44,302 bases of DNA, from positions 1 through 44,302 of the forward strand of contig JAJFUG010000132.1 in the NCBI GenBank assembly GCA_021372515.1. Direction: 5' to 3'. Made by a program: the position numbers and the translations under genes. A model generated the notes under the pieces. The model saw only the letters and a list, made by a program, of their open reading frames with translations. It had not been told where the DNA came from and made no database searches. This DNA comes from a bacterium (GTDB lineage Bacteria; Gemmatimonadota; Glassbacteria; GWA2-58-10). Below, in pieces: positions 7,028 to 42,672 of the stretch (position 1 is the stretch's first letter; the number at the start of each line of letters is the position of its first letter).

Positions 7028-8137
7028 TCAATTCCCCTGCGACTGCATCCCCAATCCCAAGGCTTTGACAATCTCGTTCCAGTCGAAAGCCGCGCAGCCG
7101 CAATCGTTGTGCACGGCGATCAGCGCCCCGGCGGCGAACGGGCCGAAAGCCCGGCTGGTCACCGCTATGCCGTCGGTGTTGGCTGTCACCTCGCCGCCGA
7201 ACGAGCCCAGGAATTTGAAATCCTTGCGCCCGAACACGTGAAAAGTGTTGTTCTGCATGTCCTGGTCGGTCATCACCCAGTAGCCGCCGCCGTCCGGGCT
7301 CTCGTACAGGGCGATCCCCTCGGGCTGGTAACGGAACAGGCCGTGGCCGATCACCCGCCCGCTGAAATTTCCCTCCAGGTCGTAAACCTTGATATCGTTG
7401 TAAATTGCATCCTCATCCGCCACCAGCAGCACCCCGGAGGACGGGTCGGCGCAGATCGATTCCACCACGTGCAGAACGCCCAAGCCATTGGTTTCACCAA
7501 AAAACTTTTCCAGGTTCGCCTTGACAGCCCCGCTCTCCACGCGCAGGCTGAAGAGCTTCACCCGCGCCCCCAGGGCCGAGTCAGGCGGGGTGTTCCCCTC
7601 GGCGGTCTCGTAGTTGTCGGTCACGTACAGACGGTAGCCGCCGGAGGCGGCGGGCAGCACGTACAGCCCGTAGGGCTTTATCAGCTCGGCCGCGCCGAAC
7701 GTGCCCAGCGGGTTGAACGCCGGCAGACCGAACACCTGCACGCGGTGGTTGTCGCGTTCCACCACCACGCACAGGTCATCGATCACCGCCACGCCGTTGG
7801 GGCGGCGCATCCGGCCCGGGGCCTCGCCGGGGGCGCCCACGCGCCGCAGTTCGCGGCCGTCGGCCCCGTTGTACACCACCAGCTCATCCGTGCTCTTGGC
7901 CGTGCAGATCACCCAGTCCGCGCCGTCCGGGGCGCGCCACAGGGCCGGCGAGTCGATGTTGTCGCCCGGCGTGCAGGGGCTGATCCAGCTTTCGGCCAGC
8001 ACTTTCCTGGCCGTGGCGGCAGAGGAATCGGCAGCCGCCGCCTGAGCGCCGGCGCCCTGCGGCTGCGCCGCGCCGCCGCAACGCACGAACAACGCCACGG
8101 TCAGAAGCAGGTATAAAAAGCTCAGATACTTTTTCAT
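7028..8137 (-). CDS. Phytase-like beta-propeller lipoprotein
   Basis: A 369-residue protein with a lipoprotein signal (lipobox LFVRC), followed by an Ala/Gln-rich linker and a beta-propeller. Motifs match the 3-phytase family in order: DSPALWRAPDG, RPNGVAVIDD, KPYGLYVLP, VADEDAIYNDIKVYD, YQPEGIALYES, NNTFHVFGR, LGSFGG and NTDGIAVTS. The family hydrolyses phosphate esters such as phytate using bound calcium. Whether every calcium ligand is kept cannot be judged without alignment. The ATG at 8137 has AAGGAG seven bases upstream, better than the TTG two codons earlier. The gene follows a TonB receptor by about 70 bases, a pairing known for beta-propeller phytases, which suggests uptake of a phosphorylated substrate. 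The operon ends at the terminator at 6951-6991. Confidence 0.82.
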   Translation of the reverse strand: MKKYLSFLYLLLTVALFVRCGGAAQPQGAGAQAAAADSSAATARKVLAESWISPCTPGDNIDSPALWRAPDGADWVICTAKSTDELVVYNGADGRELRRVGAPGEAPGRMRRPNGVAVIDDLCVVVERDNHRVQVFGLPAFNPLGTFGAAELIKPYGLYVLPAASGGYRLYVTDNYETAEGNTPPDSALGARVKLFSLRVESGAVKANLEKFFGETNGLGVLHVVESICADPSSGVLLVADEDAIYNDIKVYDLEGNFSGRVIGHGLFRYQPEGIALYESPDGGGYWVMTDQDMQNNTFHVFGRKDFKFLGSFGGEVTANTDGIAVTSRAFGPFAAGALIAVHNDCGCAAFDWNEIVKALGLGMQSQGN

Positions 8138-8210
8138 CGGCAAGCTCCTTGTTAATGGACCGGCCGTGCCCCGCGCGGGACACGGCCGATGACAGTCGTC
8201 CGCTGCCGGA

Positions 8211-11015
8211 TTACAGCTCGAACTTCACGCCCGCGTCACCCCACCAGCGGTAGAACTCCTGCTGCACCGGGTGCGCGGTGACACCCTCGTAGTAGCGCAG
8301 CGGCTCGTTGCCCAGGTTCAGCATGTCCATGTAGAGCGATATCTTAGGATGTATCTTCTGGCTGAGCGAGATGTCCCACTGCGTGTGGTTGTCGTAGTAG
8401 CGGTCGAAATCGCTGCTTTCGCCCACCTCGGAGATGTACTTGCCGTGCATGTTCATCGAGATGCGGCCGGCGAACCCGTATTTCTCGTAGCTGAGCGAAA
8501 AATTGGCGATGTGCTTGGCCTGGCCCGGCAGGCTGGCGTCGTTCCCGGTGCGGCCGGGGAATTTGGCCTTGGAGTCGGTGTAGGTGTAGTTGGCGTACAG
8601 GCCCAGGCCGTTGAGCGCCCCGGGCAGGAACGTGAGCTGGTGCTGAAGGTTCAGCTCGAAACCCCAGAGCGTGGCGTTGTCGCCGTTGAGCGGCTGATAG
8701 ATCTTGTACCCGTCGAAATCTCCGCCGCGCTGCGTGTAGACGCTGCTGTATATGTAGTCTTTGAGGTCCTTGTAGAAAAACCCGCCCGAGACCACGCCCA
8801 TCGGCCGAAGGTAGTGCTCCAGCATCAGGTCGAAATTGATCGCCTGTGTCGGCTTGAGCGCGGGGTTGCCCATCTCCATCTCGGTGTCGCTCACGTTGTT
8901 GATCCGGTATGGCACCAGGGAATAGTAGTCCGGCCGGGCCAGCGATGTGGTGAACGAGGCGCGGAAATTGGTGTTCTCGTCAAATTTGTAGCGGTAGTGC
9001 ACCATCGGGAACAGGTTCGTGTAGTTGTTGGTGTTGTTCAGACGGGTGGTGCTCAGGTAGTCCCCGTCCTCGTTGGTCTCCACGTCGTAGCCCGTGTAAT
9101 CGATGTTGGTGCGCTCCACGCGCAGGCCGAACAGCAGCATGCTCGGGCCCCAGTTCAGCCGCGACTGGGCGTAGCCGGCATAGATGTTCTCGGTCGCCTC
9201 GTAATTGGAGGGATCGGTGTCCAGACGGGAATCGCTGGGCAGGTACTCGAAGCTGCCGTAGTTCCGGCCGAAGAAACTGCGCACTTCCTTGGGGCCCTGG
9301 AATTTGCCCAGAGTGTAGCGGCCGTCCAGGAAATCCTTGCCCTCGAAACCGCTCGCCACCATGGCCAGGGTGAAATCCTCATCCCCGGCCCAGTCGTAGT
9401 AGCGCACGTCGTTGACCCGGTTCTTGTCCTTGTTGCGCACCTTGAACCCGTACTTGAGCGAGCCCGTGCCGCCGTCGAAGCTGAACGGGTGCTCCAGGTC
9501 CAGCTTGCCCGTGATGTCCCGGTCGCGGGTGGCGTTGTGCTCGTGCGAGAATGAGCTGAAATCCCAGTCCTCGTTGTCGAACAGGTTCTTGCCGTTGGTC
9601 ACGTTGAACACCGGGAAATCCGGGTCGGCCACGCTCCAGTCCAGGTTGACTTTCTTCTGGCGGAAGGTGCTGTAGAAACTACCCGGCTCCTTTTCCTGGG
9701 CCCAGGTCCAGGAGAGCTGGTAGTCCACATTCACCTTGTCCAGCTTGTGCTGGCCGCTGCCGATCACACCCACGATACGCTGCTGCTCGAAACGGTCCTT
9801 CAGCTCGCGCTCCACCGTGGCGCCGGTGGCGCTGGTGGCGCTCTCGATATCGCCCTTGCCCGGGCGGTAGCGCAGGCGGCGGCGGTTCTCGGTGTCGTCG
9901 AAGTCGTTGAAGAAGCCGCGCACCGAATAGCTCGAGCGGTCATCGGGACGGAAATCCAGGGTGGAGCTGATCCCGAAGCGCTCGCGGGTGATAACGTAGT
10001 CGCGGAGCTGGTAGTCCTCCAGCACCTTCACGTCCGGTCCGCCGAAATTCTCGACGCTGTAGGCGAGCTCGTTGTTGTCCGAGCCCTTGTTCGACTTGTA
10101 GTAATCCGTGCTGACCAGCAGGCCCAGTTTCTTTTCCGCGCCGAAACGGTTGCCCAGGGTGATGCCGGCTTTGTAGATGCCGTCCTCGACTATCGAGTTG
10201 TAGCCGCCGGAGAAACTGCCCTTGACCACCGGCTTGTCGTAGTCCATGGCGCTCTTGGTGATCAGGTTGACCGAGCCGCCGATCGCGTCGGCGTCCATGT
10301 CCGGGGTGATGGCCTTGATCACCTCGATGCTGGAGAGCACGTCCGCCGGGATCACATCCAGCGCCACGGTGCGGATATCGCCCTCGGGCGATGGCAGGCG
10401 CTCGCCGTTCACGGTCATGGCGTTCAGCCGGGCCTCCATGCCGCGGATCAGCACGTAGCGTCCCTCACCCTGGTCGCGCTCGATCGAGACGCCGGGAATG
10501 CGCTGCAAAGCCTCGGCCGTGTTCGGGTCCGGGAACGCCTCGATCAGGTCCTCGGCCGCCACGTTCTTGATGTTGTCGGCGCTCTTCTGGCGGGTCAGGG
10601 CCTCGGCCTGGCCGTGACGCAGCCCGCCCTCGATCACGATGCTCTCACCCTCGATCACTATCGACTTGAGCTGATAATTCTGGGCCGAGGTGCTGCCCGC
10701 GCCCACGGTGATCTCGCGGCTCTCCCGGTCGTAGCCCACATAGGTCACAACCAGCTTGTAGTTGCCGGCCGGGACGTTGCTGACACGGTAGTAGCCCTGA
10801 AGGTCGGCCACCGCGCCGTAGGAGGTCCCCTCCACGAACACCTGGGCGCTGGGCAGGGGGGCGCCGCTTTCGCCGACCACCCGGCCCGCGATCACCCCGC
10901 GGCCGCTCTTGAGCGCCACATCCGACCCCTGGGCCATCACAGCCGCGGGCAGAACCAGGAACAGGCACAACGCGACGCCGACAAAGCGCCGCAAACCAGA
11001 CTCGACACTGCGCAT
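8211..11015 (-). CDS. TonB-dependent outer-membrane receptor with regulatory-like N-domain
   Basis: A 934-residue receptor. Signal peptide about residues 1-28 (VLPAAVMAQG), then a carboxypeptidase-regulatory-like beta domain (about 38-120: GVIAGRVVGESGAPLPSAQV), a plug (about 140-270) and a 22-strand-type barrel to the C-terminal aromatic end (GVKFEL). The plug has RIPGVSIERDQGEGRYV, RGMEARLNAMTVNGERLP and TPDMDADAIGGSVNL, the pattern of the TonB-Xanth-Caul type receptors (TIGR01782). These often import carbohydrates or other large polar solutes. The ATG has GGAGG four bases upstream. The phytase-like gene lies 73 bases downstream on the same strand, so the pair is probably one operon that binds and processes a phosphorylated compound. 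Substrate is inference. Confidence 0.92.
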   Translation of the reverse strand: MRSVESGLRRFVGVALCLFLVLPAAVMAQGSDVALKSGRGVIAGRVVGESGAPLPSAQVFVEGTSYGAVADLQGYYRVSNVPAGNYKLVVTYVGYDRESREITVGAGSTSAQNYQLKSIVIEGESIVIEGGLRHGQAEALTRQKSADNIKNVAAEDLIEAFPDPNTAEALQRIPGVSIERDQGEGRYVLIRGMEARLNAMTVNGERLPSPEGDIRTVALDVIPADVLSSIEVIKAITPDMDADAIGGSVNLITKSAMDYDKPVVKGSFSGGYNSIVEDGIYKAGITLGNRFGAEKKLGLLVSTDYYKSNKGSDNNELAYSVENFGGPDVKVLEDYQLRDYVITRERFGISSTLDFRPDDRSSYSVRGFFNDFDDTENRRRLRYRPGKGDIESATSATGATVERELKDRFEQQRIVGVIGSGQHKLDKVNVDYQLSWTWAQEKEPGSFYSTFRQKKVNLDWSVADPDFPVFNVTNGKNLFDNEDWDFSSFSHEHNATRDRDITGKLDLEHPFSFDGGTGSLKYGFKVRNKDKNRVNDVRYYDWAGDEDFTLAMVASGFEGKDFLDGRYTLGKFQGPKEVRSFFGRNYGSFEYLPSDSRLDTDPSNYEATENIYAGYAQSRLNWGPSMLLFGLRVERTNIDYTGYDVETNEDGDYLSTTRLNNTNNYTNLFPMVHYRYKFDENTNFRASFTTSLARPDYYSLVPYRINNVSDTEMEMGNPALKPTQAINFDLMLEHYLRPMGVVSGGFFYKDLKDYIYSSVYTQRGGDFDGYKIYQPLNGDNATLWGFELNLQHQLTFLPGALNGLGLYANYTYTDSKAKFPGRTGNDASLPGQAKHIANFSLSYEKYGFAGRISMNMHGKYISEVGESSDFDRYYDNHTQWDISLSQKIHPKISLYMDMLNLGNEPLRYYEGVTAHPVQQEFYRWWGDAGVKFEL

Positions 11016-12023: not shown

Positions 12024-12755
12024 ATGCAGAACACAATTCACATGGAGATACTGCCCCAGCCGGATGACATCACCTGCGGCCCGACCTGCCTGCATGCCGT
12101 ATACAATTACTACGAGGACGAGCGCAACCTCATGCAGGTCATCCGCGAGGTGCCCAAGCTGGCTGACGGCGGGACGCTGGCCGTGCTGCTGGGGCTGCAC
12201 GCACTGGAGAACGGCTATGACGCCACGCTGTACACGTACGACGTTAAGGTGTTCGACCCCACCTGGTTCAGGTCCGCGGCGCAAGTCGATCTGAGCGCCA
12301 AGCTGAACGAGCAGATCAAGCACAAGAGCGGCAAGAAAATCCGTTTCGCCTCCGAGGCCTACCTGCGTTTCCTGGGCTTGGGCGGACGGATCACTTTCGA
12401 GGACCTCAAGCCCTCGCTCATCCGGCGACTGCTCAAGCACGACACCCCGATCCTCACCGGCCTGTGCTCGACCTATCTCTACCGCACGGCCCGCGAGATC
12501 GAGCAGGGCAACCGGATGATCTACGACGATATCCGCGGGGTGCCGGTCGGGCATTTCGTGGTGCTTTGCGGCTACAACATGGAAGAAAAAACCGCGCGCG
12601 TGGCGGACCCGTTGATGCCCAACCCGGTGAGCGACACGCAGATTTACGAGGTCGAACTTAACCACCTCATCTGCTCGATCATGCTGGGCATCCTGACATT
12701 CGACGCCAACCTGCTGGTGATCACCCCGAGCAGGCAAAGGCGAGGGAGGCATTAA
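12024..12755 (+). CDS. C39-like cysteine peptidase of an amidoligase cluster
   Basis: A 243-residue cytoplasmic protein with no signal peptide or membrane segment. The N-terminal DDITCGPTC (Cys18) and the later VGHFVVLCGY (His177) followed by Asp195 (ARVADP) form the Cys-His-Asp triad of papain-like C39-family peptidases. Unlike bacteriocin C39 domains it is not fused to an ABC transporter. It opens a four-gene set: its stop TAA is immediately followed by the GTG of the ATP-grasp gene. In this context it probably hydrolyses, trims or transfers the peptide or amide made by the two ligases; it could also be a transamidase. The start ATG has only a weak ribosome site (CACGGACA); another ATG six codons on is possible. 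Confidence 0.82.
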   Translation: MQNTIHMEILPQPDDITCGPTCLHAVYNYYEDERNLMQVIREVPKLADGGTLAVLLGLHALENGYDATLYTYDVKVFDPTWFRSAAQVDLSAKLNEQIKHKSGKKIRFASEAYLRFLGLGGRITFEDLKPSLIRRLLKHDTPILTGLCSTYLYRTAREIEQGNRMIYDDIRGVPVGHFVVLCGYNMEEKTARVADPLMPNPVSDTQIYEVELNHLICSIMLGILTFDANLLVITPSRQRRGRH

Positions 12756-14237
12756 GTGTCGGTTATAGTAGTGATCGAAAACCCCGAGGATTTCCCACTC
12801 AGGGTGGACGGGATCGGCCCGGTGGCGGCGCGCTCCTACCTGGCCGATGAATTCTACTCCGTACTCAAGGGCGACAAGGTCTTCAACATCTGCCAGAGTT
12901 ACCGTTACCAATCCATCGGCTACTATGTCTCGCTGCTGGCCGAGGCCCGCGGCCACAAGCCCGTGCCCAGCGTCACCACCATTCAGGACATGAAATCGGT
13001 CGGCATCATCCGCCTCGCCTCGGACGAGATGGACGAGCTGATCCAGAAAACCCTGGCCGGCTGCGATGTCGGCGAGGCCAGGAAAACCTCGGTCAACATC
13101 TATTTCGGCCGCTCGCCGGACAAGCGGTTCGAACAGCTCAGCTCCAAGCTGTTCAAGTATTTCCCCACGCCGTTCCTGCGCGCCGATTTCAGTTTCATCG
13201 CCCAGCAGTGGCAGCTGGTCAATGTCAGTCCTCTGGGAGTCAAGGAAATCCCCTTGGAGGAGCGCGAATTCGCCGAGCAGGTGTTCAGCGAGTTCTTCGG
13301 CGGCAAGAAACTGGTCATCCCCAAGCGCCCGGTGGCGCGCTACGAGATGGCGATCCTGCAGGACCCGCAGGAAAAGCGCCCGCCCTCCAACCAGAAAGCG
13401 ATCAAGAAATTCATCAAGGCCGCCGAATCGCTGGAGATGAGCGTGGAGCTGATCACCCGCGATGACTCCAACCGGCTCTCCGAGTTCGACGCCCTGTTCA
13501 TCCGCGAGACCACCAACGTCGACCACCACACCTACCGCATCGCCCGCAAGGCCGTGGCCGGGGGCCTGGTTGTGATCGACGACCCCGAGTCGATCCTGCG
13601 CTGCTCGAACAAGGTCTACCTGGCCGAGCTGCTCAGCCGCTACCGTGTGCCCACGCCCAAGACCCTGATCGTGCACAGCAAGAACTACGATCAGCTCCTG
13701 GAGGAGTTCAGCCTGCCCTGCATCCTCAAGCAGCCCGACAGCTCGTTCAGCCAGGGCGTGGTGATGGCCTCCGACCGCGAAAGCCTTCTGCGCGAGGCCC
13801 GCGCCCTGATCAAAAAAAGCGAGCTGGTGATCGCCCAGGAGGTCCTGCCCACCGATTTCGACTGGAGAATCGGCATCCTCGACCGGCGGCCCCTGTTTGC
13901 CTGCCGCTACTACATGGCCCACAAGCACTGGAAGATCGTGGGCAAGGACAAGAGCGGCAACGATGTCTACGGGCGCTTCGACACCCTGCCGATGGGCAAG
14001 GTGCCCAAGGGCGTGGTCCGCACCGCGCTCAAGGCGGCCAACCTTATCGGCGACGGCCTCTACGGGGTGGACCTCAAGCAGATCGGCAACAAAGTCTACG
14101 TGATCGAGGTCAACGACAATCCCAATATCGATGCCGGGGTGGAGGACGAGGTGCTGGACGAGGAGCTCTACATCCGGATCATGGAGGTCTTCCTCCGCCG
14201 CCTCGAAACCCGCAAGCAGGGGAGCGCCACGGTTTGA
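12756..14237 (+). CDS. RimK-type ATP-grasp ligase with N-terminal accessory domain
   Basis: A 493-residue cytoplasmic enzyme. Residues about 1-185 match the accessory domain found ahead of some RimK-like ligases (RLAN type). Residues about 195-485 are an ATP-grasp fold: Lys325 in ILKQPDSSFSQG, Glu362 in VIAQEVLP, and the metal-binding end GVDLKQIGNKVYVIEVNDNPN with Asp439, Glu451 and Asn453. All key ATP and metal residues seem intact. RimK enzymes join an amino acid, often glutamate, to a carboxyl group of a peptide or protein through an acyl phosphate. GTG start directly after the C39 stop, with GGGAGG eight bases upstream. The last four bases overlap the next gene. It probably acts with the GCS2 ligase on a shared, unknown product. 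Confidence 0.88.
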   Translation: MSVIVVIENPEDFPLRVDGIGPVAARSYLADEFYSVLKGDKVFNICQSYRYQSIGYYVSLLAEARGHKPVPSVTTIQDMKSVGIIRLASDEMDELIQKTLAGCDVGEARKTSVNIYFGRSPDKRFEQLSSKLFKYFPTPFLRADFSFIAQQWQLVNVSPLGVKEIPLEEREFAEQVFSEFFGGKKLVIPKRPVARYEMAILQDPQEKRPPSNQKAIKKFIKAAESLEMSVELITRDDSNRLSEFDALFIRETTNVDHHTYRIARKAVAGGLVVIDDPESILRCSNKVYLAELLSRYRVPTPKTLIVHSKNYDQLLEEFSLPCILKQPDSSFSQGVVMASDRESLLREARALIKKSELVIAQEVLPTDFDWRIGILDRRPLFACRYYMAHKHWKIVGKDKSGNDVYGRFDTLPMGKVPKGVVRTALKAANLIGDGLYGVDLKQIGNKVYVIEVNDNPNIDAGVEDEVLDEELYIRIMEVFLRRLETRKQGSATV

Positions 14238-15481
14238 GCGACGCGAGCCCCATCCACCTGTTCCAGGCTTTCGGGGTCGAGCTGGAATACATGCTGGTCG
14301 GGCGGGACAGCCTGGAGGTCCTGCCCGTCGCCGATAAGCTCCTGGCCGCCCAGGCCGGTGAGCTGGCCGGTGATGCCGAGGGCCTGGAGCGGATCGACTG
14401 GTCCAACGAGCTGGTGCTGCACGTGCTGGAGTTCAAGACCGCCGGCCCGGCCCCGGCGCTTTCCGGCCTGGCCGGGGCTTTCGGGCGCAACGTGGCCCGC
14501 GCGTCCGAACTCGCCGCGCCGCTCGGCGCGCGCCTGATGCCCGGCGCGGCCCATCCCTGGATGGACCCCCACACCCAGACCCGTCTCTGGCCCCACGAGT
14601 ACAGCGAGGTCTACCAGACCTACGACCGCATTTTCGGCTGCAAGGGCCACGGCTGGTCGAACCTGCAGAGCATGCACATCAACCTGCCGTTCAGCGGGGA
14701 TAACGAATTCGGCCGCCTGCACGCCGCCATCCGGCTTCTGCTGCCCGTTATGCCGGCCCTGACCGCCAGCTCGCCTCTCTTGGACAGCCGCCCCACCGGC
14801 TGGCTCGACTCGCGCATGGAGGTCTACTGCCACAACTCCGAGCGCCTTCCCGCCGTGGCCGGGCAAATCGTGCCCGAGGCCGCGTTCTCCGAGGCGGAAT
14901 ACGAAAGCCGTATCTACCAGCCCATGCTGGCCCAGATCGCCCCGTTCGACCCGGCGGGCATACTCAAGAAAGAGTTCCTCAACTCCCGCGGGGCCATCGC
15001 CCGTTTCGACCGCGGCTCAATCGAGATACGCGTCCTCGACCTCCAGGAGTGCCCCCCGGCCGACCTGGCCGCGGCCGCGCTGATCTGTGCTGTCCTGAAA
15101 AAGCTTTCCATGGAAGACTGGATCGACCCAGAGGCTCAGAAACGCTGGGAGGTGGAGCCCCTGGCCACGCTTTTCCGCGAGGTGATCCGTGATGGACACG
15201 CCGCCCGGATCGCGGACCGCGGCTACCTGGCCCTGTTCGGGTTGAATCCGGATAGGCCGGTGACCGCCCTGGAGTTCTGGAACCACCTGGCCGCGCTCTG
15301 CCTACCGGGCTTCGAGCACGACCCGGCCTGGGAGAAGCCGCTGGAAGTCCTGCTCCGGCGCGGCTGCCTGTCCGGGCGCATCCTGGCCGCCCTGGACGGC
15401 GACTGCCGCCGCGAGCGTCTCAAAGAGGTCTACCTTGAGCTCTGCCGCTGCCTCGACCACGGCGCAATGTTCCTGCCCTGA
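14234..15481 (+). CDS. GCS2-family carboxylate-amine ligase (glutamate-cysteine ligase-like)
   Basis: A 415-residue protein of the glutamate-cysteine ligase type 2 fold. Signature pieces: FGVELEYMLV at residues 12-21 (metal/ATP-binding acidic pair), MHINLPFSGDNEF, a basic/aromatic segment SSPLLDSRPTGWLDSRMEVY and later SIEIRVLDLQECP. Such enzymes form gamma-glutamyl or other amide bonds using ATP; true glutathione synthesis is only one option. The TTG start overlaps the ATP-grasp stop by four bases and has GGGGAG upstream, so translation is coupled. It could supply the first amide bond that the RimK enzyme extends, or the reverse. No glutathione synthetase partner is present, which speaks against simple glutathione synthesis. 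Confidence 0.87.
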   Translation: MSDASPIHLFQAFGVELEYMLVGRDSLEVLPVADKLLAAQAGELAGDAEGLERIDWSNELVLHVLEFKTAGPAPALSGLAGAFGRNVARASELAAPLGARLMPGAAHPWMDPHTQTRLWPHEYSEVYQTYDRIFGCKGHGWSNLQSMHINLPFSGDNEFGRLHAAIRLLLPVMPALTASSPLLDSRPTGWLDSRMEVYCHNSERLPAVAGQIVPEAAFSEAEYESRIYQPMLAQIAPFDPAGILKKEFLNSRGAIARFDRGSIEIRVLDLQECPPADLAAAALICAVLKKLSMEDWIDPEAQKRWEVEPLATLFREVIRDGHAARIADRGYLALFGLNPDRPVTALEFWNHLAALCLPGFEHDPAWEKPLEVLLRRGCLSGRILAALDGDCRRERLKEVYLELCRCLDHGAMFLP

Positions 15482-16175
15482 GACCGCTGTTATAATCACC
15501 TGCGAGCACGGCGGCAACTCCGTGCCCCGGTCCTGGGCCGCCCTGTTTGCCGGCTGCGGTGAATTGCTGGCAAGCCACCGCGGCTGGGACCCGGGCGCGC
15601 TCGCGCTCGCCCGTGAGCTGGCCGCGGCCCTGGGCGCCCCGCTGTTCTATTCCACCAACACTCGCCTGCTGGTGGACCTCAACCGCAGCCTGCACCACCC
15701 GCGCCTTTTCTCCGACCGGACCAGCGCTCTTGGACCATCACAGAAAAAGAGCCTGATAGATAAGCATTATCTGCCCTTCCGCAACGCGGTGGAGTCTGAA
15801 ATCCGAGCCGCGCTGGAACGCGGGCAGCAGGTGCTGCACCTGTCCGTGCACAGTTTCACCCCGGCTCTGGAGGGCGTGGTCCGCAACGCCGGCCTGGGGC
15901 TGCTCTACGACCCGCGCCGCGCGGCGGAGAAAGCTTTCTGCCGCAAGCTCAAGGCCACTCTTGCCGCCGCCCTGCCGGAGTTGCGCGTGCGCTTCAACTA
16001 CCCCTACCGCGGCGTGTCGGACGGCCATGTCACGGCGCTGCGGCGGCTGTTCCCCGAGCGCTACGCCGGGATCGAGATCGAGCTGAACCAGTCGCTTCTG
16101 ACCGGCCGTAAAGCGCCCTGGCGGCAAATCGGGGACAGCCTTATCTTTTCTGTGGCCGCCGCGCTGAAAGACTGA
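15435..16175 (+). CDS. N-formylglutamate amidohydrolase-like enzyme
   Basis: A 246-residue protein of the HutG-type N-formylglutamate amidohydrolase family (zinc hydrolases of the carboxypeptidase-like fold). Visible motifs: VIITCEHGGNSVP (zinc site), HRGWDPGALALARELA, TRLLVDLNRS, HLSVHSFTP, GLLYDP and GIEIELNQ. The TTG start has AAAGAGG six bases upstream and overlaps the GCS2 gene by 47 bases; no other in-frame start precedes the core. There are no other histidine-utilisation genes nearby, so a role in histidine breakdown is unlikely. In this operon it more likely removes an acyl or amino acid group from the product of the two ligases. Confidence 0.85.
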   Translation: MSSAAASTTAQCSCPETAVIITCEHGGNSVPRSWAALFAGCGELLASHRGWDPGALALARELAAALGAPLFYSTNTRLLVDLNRSLHHPRLFSDRTSALGPSQKKSLIDKHYLPFRNAVESEIRAALERGQQVLHLSVHSFTPALEGVVRNAGLGLLYDPRRAAEKAFCRKLKATLAAALPELRVRFNYPYRGVSDGHVTALRRLFPERYAGIEIELNQSLLTGRKAPWRQIGDSLIFSVAAALKD

Positions 16176-16266: not shown

Positions 16267-19032
16267 ATGCAAACGCGCCTCTCGCTCTGCCTGTTCAGCC
16301 TGATCCTCATCGTTGCTCTCGCCGCTCCGGCCCAGACCCCGCCGGCGCGCACCGCCCACTACATCGCCAGCACGCACTGGGACCGCGAGTGGTACGAGCC
16401 GTTCCAGGGTTTCCGCATGCGCCTGGTCTCGCTGCTGGATGAGGCTTTCGACACGTTCGGGAAGGAGCCGCAGTTCCGGAACTTTGTGACCGACGGCCAG
16501 GCAATCCCGGTGTTCGATTATCTGGAGGTGCGGCCCGAGAAGCGCGAGCTGGTCGAGCGCTACGTGCGCGAGGGACGGCTCCTGCCCGGGCCCTGGTACG
16601 TGGAGCCGGATGAGTGGCTGGTCTCGGGCGAGTCCCTGGTGCGGAACCTTCAGCTCGGGACTGACCTCTGCCGCGAGCTTGGCTCCACTGCCACTGTCTG
16701 GCCCGGCTTTGTCAACGACCAGTTCGGCCACACCGGCCAGATGCCGCAGATACTGGACCAGATGGGCTGCCCGGTGGCCTTTGTCTGGCGCGGAGCGCCG
16801 GTGGGGGTCGACACGGCCTGTTTCAACTGGCGCGCCCCGGATGGCACCACCGTGCCCACCTACCGTTTCGGCGCGGAGGGCTACACCACGTTCCAGGCCC
16901 GGGTGCGCGATTTCGGCCGCGCGCCGTTCGACCCCGACAGCGCCCTGGAGCGCCTGATACGGTTTGTCCACGCCGAGTCCGCCCGCAGCGCCACGGGGAC
17001 GCTGCTTCTGTACGACGGGCGCGACCACATCGAGATCGAGCCGCGCATGCCCGCGGTCCTGGCCCGCGCCAATGAGCGCCTGGCCGCCGAGGGCATCCGG
17101 GTGGTCCATTCCACCCCGGCCGACTACATGCGCGACCTGCTGGCCGAGCGCGGCAAGATCACCCGCAGCGTGACCGGTGAGCTGCGCATGAGCTGCCGCA
17201 CGCAGCGCGACGGAAAACTGATACCGGGCGTGCTCTCCAGCCGCATACACCTCAAGCAGAAAAACGCGCGGTGCGAGGATGAGCTCACGCTCTGGGCCGA
17301 GCCGTTCAGCGCTTTCGCCGCCCTGGCCCTGGGCGCGGAATACCCAACGGACTACCTGCGTCTGGCCTGGAAACAACTGCTCGAGAACCATCCCCACGAC
17401 AGTATGTGCGGCTGCTCGATCGACCAGATCCACCAGGACATGCTCTACCGCTTCGACCAGTCGCTCGGCATCTCGAGCCACCTGAGCGCCGCGGCGCTCA
17501 AGTCCCTGGCCGAGGCCGCCGCGCCCAAAACCCCGCTTCCCGAGAGTGCGCTGTTCATGGCCGTGTTCAACCCCACCGCCTCGGCCCTGGATGAGCCGGT
17601 CGATCTGGATATCTGTCTGCCCACCGACTGGGCCACCACGTTCGAGGAGTTTTTCGGCTACGAGCGCAAGTTCGCTTTCATCCTGCGCGGGCCTGACGGC
17701 GCCGTAATTCCCTGGCAGCTCTGCGGTCAGGCGCAGAACCGGGAGGGTTTCCGCCGCGAGCGCTACCAGGGCCCGGAGTGGGACCCCCGGAACCTGGTGC
17801 GGGTCTGCTGCCAGCTCAAAGTTCCGGCTTTCGGCTACACCACGCTGAGCGTGGAGCCCGCGCCCGGTCCGGTGCGCTACTCGGGCAGCCTCAAGGCCGC
17901 CTCCGGCGCCATCGAGAACGAGTTCCTCCTGGTCCGGGCCGAGCCGGGCGGCACGCTCAGTGTCACCGACAAGCGCAGCGGGCGCACCTACAGCGGCCTG
18001 CTCGCTTTCGAGGACTGCGCGGATATCGGCGACGGCTGGTTCCACGGAGTGGCGGTCAACGACCGGGTGCAACTGTCCAGCGCCTGCGGGGCGGATATCT
18101 CGGTGCTGGAGGACGGGTTCGCGCGCTCCACCCTGCGGATCGATTTAACCATGAACCTGCCCGCGGAGTTCGATTTCCGCGACATGCGGCGCTCCGAGCG
18201 CACGGCGGCTTTGCGCATAATCAGCGACATCACCCTGCGCCGCGGCGCGGACCGCCTGGAGGTCAGCACCCGGGTGGAGAACAACGTCCTGGACCACCGT
18301 CTGCGCGTGCTCCTTCCCACCGGGGTCAAGGGCGGCGCGAGCCTGTCCAACTCGGCGTTCGACATTGTCGAGCGCCCCGTGGCCCTGCCCGCGGACAACG
18401 ACAGCCGCGATGAACTGGCAGTGGAGACTGTCCCGCGCGAAAGCTGGACCGCGTTCGGCGATGGCGCCGCGGGGCTGGCCGTGATAGCCCGCGGCCTTCC
18501 CGAGTGCGCCGTGCTCGACACCCCGCAGCGCCCCCTGGCCCTGACCCTGTTGCGCTCTTTCCGCAAGGCCGTGTTCGCCGACGACAACCCTGGCGGACAG
18601 ATACAGGGCCCACACGAGTTCCGCTACGATATCCTGCCGCTTTCCGGCCCCGTGCCGGTGGAACGTCTCTGTCTGCTCGGCCAGCGGGTCGGCGGCGCGG
18701 CGCGCAGCGCCACCCTCCTGCCGCGTGACCTCTATGTGGCGCGCGAGAGGGCCGGCGCACTGCCGCGTGAGCATTCGTTCCTCGCTGTCGAGGGCCCGGT
18801 GGTGGTGACCGCGGTGCAGGAAATGCCGCAAGGCCTGGCGGTGCGCTTTTTCAACCCGCGCGCCGCGGCCTGCCGGGCGCTTCTGTCCTCCGGCTCCGGC
18901 CTGACCGGCGCGGAGAGTATCACCCTGGCCGGAGCGCCGGACAACCGCGCCGCCGTGCATATGGCCGGGGAAAAGGCCCAGGTGGACCTCCCCGGCAAGC
19001 GTATCTGCACGCTGGTCCTGAAAAGCCGCTGA
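16267..19032 (+). CDS. Exported GH38 alpha-mannosidase
   Basis: A 921-residue protein with a Sec signal peptide (about residues 1-23, ending APAQ). The catalytic domain shows the GH38 hallmarks: STHWDREWY (His37 and Asp39, zinc ligands), PGFVNDQFGHTGQMPQ (Asp151, predicted nucleophile and zinc ligand), and ENHPHDSMCGCS (residues 373-384, final zinc histidine and helical bundle start). The rest is the usual large beta-sandwich. It should remove alpha-mannosyl residues in the periplasm or outside; many bacterial GH38 enzymes act on N-glycan-like or mannan-derived oligosaccharides. The ATG has CGGAGG six bases upstream. It starts 91 bases after the amidoligase cluster with no terminator seen, so read-through is possible but a functional link is unproven. 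Confidence 0.93.
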   Translation: MQTRLSLCLFSLILIVALAAPAQTPPARTAHYIASTHWDREWYEPFQGFRMRLVSLLDEAFDTFGKEPQFRNFVTDGQAIPVFDYLEVRPEKRELVERYVREGRLLPGPWYVEPDEWLVSGESLVRNLQLGTDLCRELGSTATVWPGFVNDQFGHTGQMPQILDQMGCPVAFVWRGAPVGVDTACFNWRAPDGTTVPTYRFGAEGYTTFQARVRDFGRAPFDPDSALERLIRFVHAESARSATGTLLLYDGRDHIEIEPRMPAVLARANERLAAEGIRVVHSTPADYMRDLLAERGKITRSVTGELRMSCRTQRDGKLIPGVLSSRIHLKQKNARCEDELTLWAEPFSAFAALALGAEYPTDYLRLAWKQLLENHPHDSMCGCSIDQIHQDMLYRFDQSLGISSHLSAAALKSLAEAAAPKTPLPESALFMAVFNPTASALDEPVDLDICLPTDWATTFEEFFGYERKFAFILRGPDGAVIPWQLCGQAQNREGFRRERYQGPEWDPRNLVRVCCQLKVPAFGYTTLSVEPAPGPVRYSGSLKAASGAIENEFLLVRAEPGGTLSVTDKRSGRTYSGLLAFEDCADIGDGWFHGVAVNDRVQLSSACGADISVLEDGFARSTLRIDLTMNLPAEFDFRDMRRSERTAALRIISDITLRRGADRLEVSTRVENNVLDHRLRVLLPTGVKGGASLSNSAFDIVERPVALPADNDSRDELAVETVPRESWTAFGDGAAGLAVIARGLPECAVLDTPQRPLALTLLRSFRKAVFADDNPGGQIQGPHEFRYDILPLSGPVPVERLCLLGQRVGGAARSATLLPRDLYVARERAGALPREHSFLAVEGPVVVTAVQEMPQGLAVRFFNPRAAACRALLSSGSGLTGAESITLAGAPDNRAAVHMAGEKAQVDLPGKRICTLVLKSR

Positions 19033-39348: not shown

Positions 39349-42300
39349 CTATTTCAGCAATTTCAGCAGGCCGAGCAGGTCGAACACATCCAGCTTGCCG
39401 TCCGAGTTGAGATCAAAGCTCGCAATGCCGGAGCCGCCAGGGTTGCCCAGCGCGTGCAACATTGCGAGCAGGTCGTAAACATCCGCCCGGCCGTTACCGT
39501 CCACATCTCCCGTGTCTCTGTCTCCGGCCGGGGTGATGACCCACATCAGGCGGGTGCCGTACATGGGTGGGCTGCTGAAAGTCTCGCCGGTGTATGGTGA
39601 ATAGAACGGCTCCCGCACCTGCGCTGCGTCAAGGTCGATCAAGGCCAGGCAATTGTGGTCGCCTGACAGGGTGAACAGGAGCCGTCCCTTGTCGCTGCTC
39701 CGGTAGACAGAGTTCGAATGGTATTTTTCGTAATCGAAAGCGAACCTGGCGACTGAATCGGTGCGGGTCCAATCCCAGATCAAAAGCGCAGTAACAGTGT
39801 CCTCCACCTCCGCCACGAGCGTGTTTCCTCCATCCAGGAATTTCGTGCTGCCGGCACCCAGTATCATCGTGGTCGGGAAAGAGAAAGACTCCCCCCGGCT
39901 GACAGAGGAATTGAGCAAAACCGGCTTGTCACTGGATATATCGTAGCGCCGCACGACCAGATAGCGCCGCCTCGTGTCTCCCGAGAAATAATCTGTTGGA
40001 TTGATATACAACTCGGCGGTAAGCATGACACTATCGCTCAGAAGTGTCGGAAACTCGTTGGTCCCGTCCATCTCAATCTCACGCAACAGTCCCCCGCCGG
40101 AGCGGGAATACAACTGCACAAGGCTTCTGTTCTTCAGCAACAAAATGTCCTTGCCCGGATACAATTCCAGTTGCATCGGCACAATAGCGAAAGTAGTGCC
40201 CCCTTCCTGTCCGGCGATAATCCTGAAAGCGCCGCTGGCCAGGTCCACCCGGTACAGGCAGTCCCAGTCGAGCAGGTACAGCGCGTTATAATCCTCATCC
40301 AGCAGGCTGTAGAGGGTCCTGGAATAATCGAGCGACACTCCCTCCGGCACCGGAATTTTTCGCTCGATGGCCCAGGAATCGAGGTCCACTACATCGATCG
40401 TGTTGGTGAACCAGTTGTAACAGTAGCATTTCTTTTGCTCCGAATCCACAACCGGCGCGAGGTTGCCCGCTCCGTAGAGAATACCGAAAACGCTCAGGTC
40501 CTCGGGGTTGAAACACAGCAGCCCGGCCCTCTGCGCCGGGAATATTTCCTCTTCCGAGGGATGGGTCAGCGGGGGGTCCATTTTCCTCGGCTCGAAACCC
40601 GCCAGCGCCCGCCGTCCCGGCCGCGGAAGAGCCTTGAATTCAAGCCGGGCCACGCTGTCCGGCGCGCTCTCGGGGAGATTGAATTCAAGCCCGCTCCCGT
40701 TTGTCACCCGGATATAGTATTCCACTTCCACGCCTGCGTTCTGAGGCGGCAGGTCCAGCCCCAGGAAACCGCCCGGCGCGCCCGGAGACAGGATGCGGAC
40801 CGAATCCCAGTCCGCGCCGCCGGCCCTGTAAAACAGGGTGGCATCCCGATAGATCGAGGAGCTGTCGAGGTAGAGTTCCAGCCGGTGGCTCTGTCCGCCC
40901 GGAGCCACGCCCTGTGGCGCGAGCGCCATCTGGGGCTGGTAGGTCACATCCATCAGCGTTTTCACCCCGGGGTCCAGGCGGATGGAATCGGGTATCGCCG
41001 CCAGAGACAGGGTGACCGTGTCCGCCTTCCCTGCCAGATGAATCTCCGTCAGTTCCGGAACGGCCTGGCCCGGTGGATACACTCCCAACTCGACCGGAAT
41101 ATCGAACAGGCCGTCGGTCTGCTCGAGCACCAGCCGCCCGGAAAGGCTTTCTCCATCTTTCCGATAGGACGACCTGAGCCTCACCTGGGGATAGCCGGCC
41201 TTTTCAAACCACTCCCGCCTGAACCAGCCCAGGTCGCGGCCGTAGCTTCTTTCCAGAATTGAGAAGAAATCCGTCAATGAATTTTCCTGATACGGAAAAC
41301 CAGTCTGATATTCTTTGAGACAGGCGATAAAAGCGTCCTCCCCGAGCATGGATTCCAGCATATACAGCACCCAGGGGCCTTTCAGATAATAGAGTGACCT
41401 GTCTTCCGTGGGTTGCACATCGACCAGTGGCTGGTCCGCTTCGGTGCCGAGGATCGTTTTCAACGCTTTCTGCAGGTTGTTTCGATAGCGGTTTTTAAGC
41501 TCGTTCTTGTCCGGCCACATCACCCGGAGGGCGGAATACTCGGCCCAGCCCTCCATCGTGTACAAGTGTTCCGGCGACCAGACCCGATGCGCCCACCACT
41601 GGTGGGCCAGCTCGTGGACCTGAGATTTCTGCATCAGATAGGGAGAATTGCCGATAATATAGTTCTCGCCGCCCAGATGCCCCTCGGGAACGAAAAACGT
41701 CCCGGGCAAGGAAAAGTAGGGCGTCGTTTGCGAACTCCATTGTGTGAGTTCAACCATATTGACCGTCTGGTATTCAATTCCGCCGAACCACGTTTCATAT
41801 TTTTTCCAGGCCTCGAACTGCCATTCGGCCCGCCTGTCGAGCAGGCTGTCCGGCGCTCCGAGATGATAGATGTTGAAACGCCTGGCCTCACGTTCGTATG
41901 TTTTAACCTGGTACTTGTCCACAACAAATATCGGAGTATCTTTGGCCGGGTATTTCGTTCTCCATTCAAAGCACGTGAGTCCGGGCGAGGGTTCCCAGGT
42001 GCGCTCCAGCTCACCCATGGCCACGGCCTGATATTTCTGCGGCGCAGTTATGTCGAACGAGACTTTGTAGGCCCCCGCGAAACTCGGTTCAGCCGGGAAC
42101 GGGCTCCAGTAGAAAATCCCGTAATAGTTGTGATAGAACCGGTCCGGGCCTTGAGACAGGGGACGGTAGCCGCGAAAATCAGTCTTGTTCTTGAACCAAA
42201 AAGTCAGGGTGTCGACCTGGCCGGCCTCGACCTGTCCCTGGTAAATCAACATTACGCCATAATTTACATAGAGTTGCATCGAGTCGATTCCGATCACTGA

Positions 42301-42615
42301 AAGGACCGAATCCACCCGCGAATCCAGGCTCAGGGCGTCGAAATACAGGAACAGGGGCTCTGTTCCCGACTTCAGATGACGGATCGTGAGATCGGTGCGG
42401 CAGGTCAGACGGGTGCTGTCGGGCAGGAACTGCACCTGTGCCTTGAAATCCAGCACTGTCACCTGCTCATTCGCGGCCGCGGCAAGCACGGGGGCGGCTT
42501 TCTGTTTCCGCTGGCGGCTCTGATGCAGGTCCAGCTCACGGACATCCTCTGCCATCGAGTTTTGGAGATCGATTAAACAGAAAAAAGCCATTAACAGGAA
42601 AAATTTCGTTCGCAT
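39349..42615 (-). CDS. Exported M1-type metallopeptidase with C-terminal dockerin
   Basis: A 1088-residue protein with a signal peptide (about 1-22). Residues about 50-500 form an M1 aminopeptidase-like unit: the substrate-anchoring LGGENYI, the zinc site HELAHQWW (His334, Glu335, His338) and MEGWAEY with Glu355. Spacing from the second histidine to this glutamate is 16 residues, against 18 in typical M1 enzymes. A segment of beta-rich and propeller-like repeats (about 690-1010) follows. The last 50 residues are a dockerin-like pair: GDVDGNGRADVYDLLAML and DLNSDGKLDVFDLLGLL. ATG at 42615 with GGCGGAAA upstream. Extracellular peptide release is likely. A lipoprotein gene lies 57 bases upstream on the same strand. 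Confidence 0.88.
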   Translation of the reverse strand: MRTKFFLLMAFFCLIDLQNSMAEDVRELDLHQSRQRKQKAAPVLAAAANEQVTVLDFKAQVQFLPDSTRLTCRTDLTIRHLKSGTEPLFLYFDALSLDSRVDSVLSVIGIDSMQLYVNYGVMLIYQGQVEAGQVDTLTFWFKNKTDFRGYRPLSQGPDRFYHNYYGIFYWSPFPAEPSFAGAYKVSFDITAPQKYQAVAMGELERTWEPSPGLTCFEWRTKYPAKDTPIFVVDKYQVKTYEREARRFNIYHLGAPDSLLDRRAEWQFEAWKKYETWFGGIEYQTVNMVELTQWSSQTTPYFSLPGTFFVPEGHLGGENYIIGNSPYLMQKSQVHELAHQWWAHRVWSPEHLYTMEGWAEYSALRVMWPDKNELKNRYRNNLQKALKTILGTEADQPLVDVQPTEDRSLYYLKGPWVLYMLESMLGEDAFIACLKEYQTGFPYQENSLTDFFSILERSYGRDLGWFRREWFEKAGYPQVRLRSSYRKDGESLSGRLVLEQTDGLFDIPVELGVYPPGQAVPELTEIHLAGKADTVTLSLAAIPDSIRLDPGVKTLMDVTYQPQMALAPQGVAPGGQSHRLELYLDSSSIYRDATLFYRAGGADWDSVRILSPGAPGGFLGLDLPPQNAGVEVEYYIRVTNGSGLEFNLPESAPDSVARLEFKALPRPGRRALAGFEPRKMDPPLTHPSEEEIFPAQRAGLLCFNPEDLSVFGILYGAGNLAPVVDSEQKKCYCYNWFTNTIDVVDLDSWAIERKIPVPEGVSLDYSRTLYSLLDEDYNALYLLDWDCLYRVDLASGAFRIIAGQEGGTTFAIVPMQLELYPGKDILLLKNRSLVQLYSRSGGGLLREIEMDGTNEFPTLLSDSVMLTAELYINPTDYFSGDTRRRYLVVRRYDISSDKPVLLNSSVSRGESFSFPTTMILGAGSTKFLDGGNTLVAEVEDTVTALLIWDWTRTDSVARFAFDYEKYHSNSVYRSSDKGRLLFTLSGDHNCLALIDLDAAQVREPFYSPYTGETFSSPPMYGTRLMWVITPAGDRDTGDVDGNGRADVYDLLAMLHALGNPGGSGIASFDLNSDGKLDVFDLLGLLKLLK

Positions 42616-42631
42616 TTTCCGCCCCCAAGGA

Positions 42632-42660
42632 CCGCCGCCCGGCTTGACACCGGGCGGCGG
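42632..42660 (-). other. Strong GC hairpin between lipoprotein and M1 peptidase genes
   Basis: An 11-bp stem (42632-42642 with 42650-42660), seven-base loop, in the 57-base gap on the minus strand. It has no T run, so it probably does not fully terminate transcription. It could protect or uncouple the upstream message within an operon. Confidence 0.5.
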
Positions 42661-42672
42661 CACTGTTGTCTG

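Follow-up and report, generated by a model that had tools for sequence, protein, structure and literature searches.

Gene neighbourhoods built around RLAN-RimK amidoligases, with GNAT and papain-like domains, were reportedly predicted by Iyer et al. in 2009. A DUF3335-GNAT fusion is described in PMC10318531, which cites Iyer et al. 2009 (Mol Biosyst 5:1636) for it. In Legionella adelaidensis, RimK, GCS2 and FGase genes lie side by side and are annotated by PGAP with no function assigned, and the literature that we searched returned no experimental work on the cluster and no product of an RLAN-RimK. The locus analysed here belongs to this kind, predicted earlier and without a characterised member, and this copy is new. 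It shares with the GNAT/DUF3335-type loci the RLAN-RimK core (PF14401) and an adjacent C39-like papain fold. However, where those loci carry a GNAT, this one has no GNAT but a GCS2 ligase and an FGase, and it falls in a separate half of the family tree. What is new in our analysis is the quantified conservation of the gene set, a RimK-GCS2 fusion, the split between GCS2 and GNAT partners, and the way in which FGase depends on GCS2.

Four coupled genes and their enzymes

The window is a 44,302-nucleotide stretch of DNA. At 12024-16175 it holds four same-strand open reading frames whose ends abut or overlap, and our check of the ORFs bore out the coupled row that the initial annotation had described. 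The first gene (12024-12755, forward strand like the other three) starts with ATG and encodes a C39-like papain-fold Cys hydrolase or transpeptidase of 243 aa. The RLAN-RimK ATP-grasp ligase (12756-14237, 493 aa), whose N-terminal part holds the RLAN domain (12828-13277, a PF14401 match), starts at a GTG directly after the C39 stop; the GCS2-family carboxylate-amine ligase (14234-15481, 415 aa) starts at a TTG inside the RimK stop; and the FGase-family (N-formylglutamate amidohydrolase-like) metallohydrolase (15435-16175, 246 aa) starts at a TTG and overlaps GCS2 by 47 bases. By eye, purine-rich, RBS-like stretches lie 5' of RimK (GGGAGG), GCS2 (GGGGAG) and FGase (AAAGAGG), consistent with coupled translation. 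Long antisense ORFs lie opposite the C39 and RimK genes, and the strand of both genes is fixed by domain matches and homologues.

The active sites of the C39 and ATP-grasp enzymes had been called intact from residues Cys18, His177 and Asp195 and from Lys325, Glu451 and Asn453. Alignment with homologues confirmed this and extended it to all four proteins, with catalytic residues essentially invariant in 77 C39, 102 RimK, 79 GCS2 and 44 FGase sequences.

The C39 protein passed the Pfam cut-off of Peptidase_C39_2 only narrowly (27 versus 24 bits), so we also predicted its fold; Guanylate_cyc_2 stayed under its cut-off at 21 bits, NCBIfam gave zero matches, and no signal peptide was evident. Residues Q12, C18, H177 and D195 are kept in 76-77 of the 77 homologues. 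The AlphaFold model (pLDDT 95) lies nearest to double-Gly proteases, the pseudomurein isopeptidase PeiR, a C39-like peptidase and phytochelatin synthase, and also matches phytochelatin synthase-glutathione complexes; overall, these are likenesses to generic papain-like enzymes, with modest TM-scores. Exporter and processing systems of the Peptidase C39 type have an ABC transporter fusion and a GG-leader precursor, whereas the enzyme here stands alone. Phytochelatin synthase carries out transpeptidation on gamma-glutamyl peptides, and the C39 model resembles it in fold.

RLAN-RimK, a single-copy gene in the window genome, scores 149 bits against Pfam RLAN (cut-off 25) and 37 bits against RimK (cut-off 21). 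K286, K325, D439, E451 and N453 are kept in all 102 sequences, and the RLAN domain has a conserved block from N44 to P71 plus W152. With RimK, LysX and ArgX, its best PDB matches by sequence and fold, it shares the ATP-grasp fold, the metal-binding D-x(n)-E-x-N and the ATP lysines. Those enzymes lack the extra RLAN domain, and where RimK has NxxPG the protein here has NDNPN. The best folds listed for the structure model (pLDDT 92.6) were LysX, ArgX, RimK and Ddl; because these matches span about 300 of the 493 residues, the RLAN domain has no counterpart among them. The protein fails the NCBIfam cut-offs of rimK_fam (RimK alpha-L-glutamate ligase, S6 modification; 62.3 versus 143.4 bits) and of LysX (52.7 versus 275.6 bits), and with the latter LysX/ArgX membership. 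Together, RLAN-RimK and GCS2 lie far under the NCBIfam cut-offs of RimK, LysX, MptN, CofF, YbdK, GshA and EgtA.

GCS2 is likewise single copy in the window genome, matches Pfam GCS2 at 86 bits (cut-off 21), and keeps E16, E18, N58, E59, H63, E66, K68 and E264 in 79 of 79 sequences. The ExE and other invariant residues and the GCS2 Pfam domain are common to YbdK, to GshA of the plant or cyanobacterial type and to EgtA, and YbdK also has the HP motif found here. Nevertheless, the protein fails the models of YbdK (TIGR02050; 52.7 versus 176.4 bits), GshA_cyano (35 versus 249 bits) and EgtA (19 versus 371 bits). On the GshA_cyano score, and with no match to GSH-S_ATP (the glutathione-synthetase ATP domain) in the window genome, we rejected glutathione synthesis itself as the function.

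The FGase protein matches its Pfam family at 88 bits (cut-off 29), keeps E24, H25, R77, N83, R84 and H139 in 44 of 44 sequences, and has Atu2144 (2odf, E 1.9e-42) as its closest solved relative. It shares the FGase domain with the HutG/Atu2144 family. Unlike HutG of histidine utilisation, it had no match in the NCBIfam search, the HutG equivalog included, and no urocanase match was found in the window genome. The initial annotation had noted that histidine-utilisation and glutathione-synthetase genes are missing next to the cluster; our searches did not find them elsewhere in that genome either.

Conservation and partner choice

An alignment search with RLAN-RimK returned at least 592 relatives; our analysis took in the 80 best of them together with 22 loci from the window's phylum. 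These 80 are the top matches to an alignment led by the window, so the GCS2 branch is over-represented. Gene order and strand were fixed in these loci: 43 read C39-RimK-GCS2-FGase, 23 C39-RimK-GCS2, 7 C39 followed by a RimK-GCS2 fusion, 8 RimK-GCS2 and 1 RimK-GCS2-FGase, some of the shorter forms being truncated at contig edges. No alternative order was seen among the loci analysed. C39, RimK and GCS2 thus stand in the same order on one strand in 73 RLAN loci. These span about 15 phyla, among them Planctomycetota, Pseudomonadota, Bacteroidota, Spirochaetota, Thermodesulfobacteriota, Balneolota, Nitrospirota and Omnitrophota. The fusion occurs in seven genomes of the window's phylum, which form one supported clade, and points to adjacent reactions.

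The search for the same four-gene order, which the initial annotation had proposed together with the active-site alignment, found it dozens of times across some 15 phyla, far beyond chance, and within the GCS2-type branch neither homologues set apart nor lost catalytic residues turned up. Divergence was correlated among RimK, GCS2 and C39 (Spearman 0.69-0.70, reached in 0 of 200 permutations) and at 0.25-0.53 for pairs with FGase; such correlations of pairwise distances are partly due to shared ancestry. The lack of an adjacent precursor peptide or transporter, recorded earlier for this locus, holds across homologues. To look for a precursor peptide or tag gene, we clustered the small ORFs lying up to 800 bases from every locus, which yielded just out-of-frame shadows of coding genes or pieces of GCS2. 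Among the neighbours, no fifth gene or transporter recurred beyond close relatives, the widest cluster covering 8 loci at scattered distances. It is almost certain that the four genes make up a single small pathway. Of the versions seen, the four-gene set is the most complete, with two ligases, two hydrolases and no other conserved gene.

Partner choice was scored over the wider RLAN family, with a Pseudomonadota sample drawn by the RLAN domain to offset the bias toward the GCS2 branch. Of the 349 Pseudomonadota genomes sampled, 62 have an RLAN-RimK; in the window's phylum, 23 of 298 genomes do. Among 60 Pseudomonadota loci of this domain-drawn sample, 25 had no recognised partner and 35 had GNAT, the C39-like DUF3335 or both (34 with GNAT, mostly fused to the C39-like domain); GCS2 or FGase was found in none of the 60. 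In a tree of 162 sequences (midpoint root, support 91), GNAT and stand-alone loci fell on one side and GCS2 loci on the other, with 3 changes between GNAT and GCS2 whose direction is not readable from the tree. The window locus is of the GCS2 type and not of the GNAT type on this tree: it carries the RLAN-RimK fusion of the amidoligase module, with C39 directly upstream as in most GCS2-type loci, and the neighbouring genes scanned included no GNAT, GCS2 being there in its stead.

FGase was seen only with GCS2, beside 44 of 82 GCS2 loci and 0 of 10 GNAT loci, an association that rests on few independent events. Where RLAN-RimK had no adjacent GCS2, 10 of 11 genomes had no such GCS2 elsewhere; where GCS2 had no adjacent FGase (20 genomes), 13 had none at all and 7 had a match elsewhere, six of these strong and near full length. 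Thus, RLAN-RimK is the core, GCS2 or GNAT is its alternative partner, and FGase is an optional accessory of GCS2. Because half of the RLAN family does without GCS2 and FGase, the core reaction is independent of both.

Two sets of loci add detail. In five loci from Nevskiaceae and kin (L099, L124, L134, L136 and L137), a GNAT gene (about 8455-8940) directly follows RLAN-RimK at the usual place of GCS2. The RimKs of these five loci sit within the GCS2 branch, and their GNAT is likely a partner swap. On the Pseudomonas aeruginosa plasmid pZYPA1927, a stand-alone RLAN-RimK (L148, 5001-6479) lies near a glutamate/aspartate ABC transporter. By gene order, the stand-alone RLAN-RimK of P. aeruginosa is probably PA1345. 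PA1345 is listed with a predicted CpxR site, from the motif only (PMC12802237), and carries no weight in our reading.

A candidate amide pathway and its rivals

ATP-grasp and GCS2 enzymes make amides via acyl phosphates, papain-fold enzymes cut or transfer via a thioester, and enzymes of the FGase family are metal-dependent amidases that cleave N-acyl-glutamate. We propose that the four genes form a self-contained cytosolic module of amide metabolism in which two ligases act in sequence to build a short non-ribosomal amide or isopeptide, following the logic of glutathione without making it; we put the probability of this reading at roughly 0.48, close to an even chance. RLAN-RimK and GCS2 would work consecutively, as the RimK-GCS2 fusion and the fixed adjacency suggest, each converting a carboxylate into an acyl phosphate and then coupling it to an amine. 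The product would be a short non-ribosomal amide or isopeptide, built as glutathione is, by a GCS2-type glutamyl ligase and an ATP-grasp ligase, but by enzymes that are not those of glutathione. C39 might cut or transfer part of it by way of a Cys thioester, much as the related phytochelatin synthase handles glutathione, or prepare the acceptor. FGase would hydrolyse the bond that GCS2 forms, glutamyl or N-acyl-glutamate, in proof-reading, turnover or deprotection. Since GNAT and GCS2 both acylate amines and alternate with each other, the partner may serve to cap an amine of the RLAN-RimK substrate or product.

The initial annotation held that the set makes and edits a small peptide, amide or protein tag. 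The idea that the four genes, two for ligases and two for hydrolases, function together in conserved order stands. Our analysis refines it: RLAN-RimK is the core, FGase is optional, and the other half of the RLAN family lacks GCS2 and has a GNAT acyltransferase or no partner. A further reading, in which bacteria of about 15 phyla use the module to make a shared metabolite not described before, a glutathione-like gamma-glutamyl or isopeptide compound (or else a new small tag), and the sister RLAN branch makes GNAT-acylated analogues, strikes us as unlikely. The four-gene system is compact enough for its product to be found by expression, and the choice between GCS2 with FGase and GNAT predicts which part of the product should differ.

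With no conserved carrier, precursor or transporter, the module probably works on common metabolites or on a protein whose gene lies elsewhere, and it is the latter case that gives the best-surviving rival, which we consider rather doubtful. It holds that RLAN-RimK adds amino acids such as Glu to a C-terminus or side chain, GCS2 makes a second linkage, C39 trims the target or removes the tag, and FGase removes a terminal Glu. GCS2 belongs to the same superfamily as the Pup ligases. The nearest solved relatives of the core, RimK-S6, LysX-LysW and ArgX-LysW, act on protein C-termini; RimK and LysX relatives can thus modify proteins, and a RimK fold does not imply a small-molecule product. The C39 model, too, resembles peptidases and the isopeptidase PeiR. 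E. coli S6 ends in Glu-Glu; the S6 of the window genome, the only one considered, ends in EDDDA. Further against modification of a protein, none of the analysed loci has a conserved small-protein or tag gene next to it, and RLAN-RimK is under the cut-offs of RimK alpha-L-glutamate ligase (62 versus 143 bits) and LysX (53 versus 276). Counted in its favour is a Pseudomonas precedent, in which RimK adds and RimB removes Glu on RpsF (PMC12239564). On balance we infer that a small molecule is ahead of a protein tag by about 2:1.

A quite improbable alternative is that the product is a glutathione-like or other low-molecular-weight thiol, GCS2 making gamma-Glu-Cys (or gamma-Glu-X), RLAN-RimK adding a third residue and C39 acting like phytochelatin synthase. 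The glutathione/phytochelatin pathway likewise combines a GCS2-type ligase, an ATP-grasp ligase and a papain-fold enzyme, the two ligases being the enzyme pair of glutathione synthesis, but its enzymes are not orthologous to those here. The window genome has neither a glutathione-synthetase ATP domain nor a second GCS2, the C39 model fits the phytochelatin synthase-glutathione complexes, and RimK-GCS2 fusions are in principle like GshF. However, GCS2 is far under all glutathione, ergothioneine and YbdK cut-offs, the GNAT-partnered relatives have no glutamyl ligase, and at least two module-bearing genomes (G099 and G146) also have a strong glutathione-synthetase match, strong matches alone being counted since PF02955 is unspecific as a GshB marker (it matches B. 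subtilis). That FGase serves histidine catabolism or salvage beside three incidental neighbours, as its family name and fold might suggest, is hardly credible and contradicted by the same neighbours in conserved order at 43 other loci, the failed NCBIfam HutG match and the urocanase missing from the genome.

Origin of this copy and neighbouring genes

The window RimK and the Desulfosediminicola flagellatus copy group together (support 99) at 67-68% identity, and copies from the window's phylum reach at most about 51% identity. Module RimK was absent from each of five same-family genomes. The window locus was likely acquired laterally. The C39 and RimK genes have 61-62% GC and the GCS2, FGase and downstream GH38 genes 67-69%, a split from which a mosaic origin of the cluster is possible. 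The module gave no phage match and 11 plasmid matches, mostly to Azospirillum megaplasmids.

Directly downstream of the cluster, 16267-19032 (forward strand) encodes a member of the GH38 alpha-mannosidase family that appears to carry a signal peptide; it resembles mannosylglycerate hydrolase but scores below the cut-off of that enzyme (365 versus 1138 bits). Upstream, on the reverse strand, a phytase-like protein (7028-8143; PF02333, 29 bits) adjoins a TonB-dependent receptor (8211-11015) with a carboxypeptidase-regulatory-like N-terminal domain; the two (7028-11015) are a possible phytate-uptake pair. A peptidase M1 domain lies in a 1104-aa protein encoded at 39349-42663 on the reverse strand.
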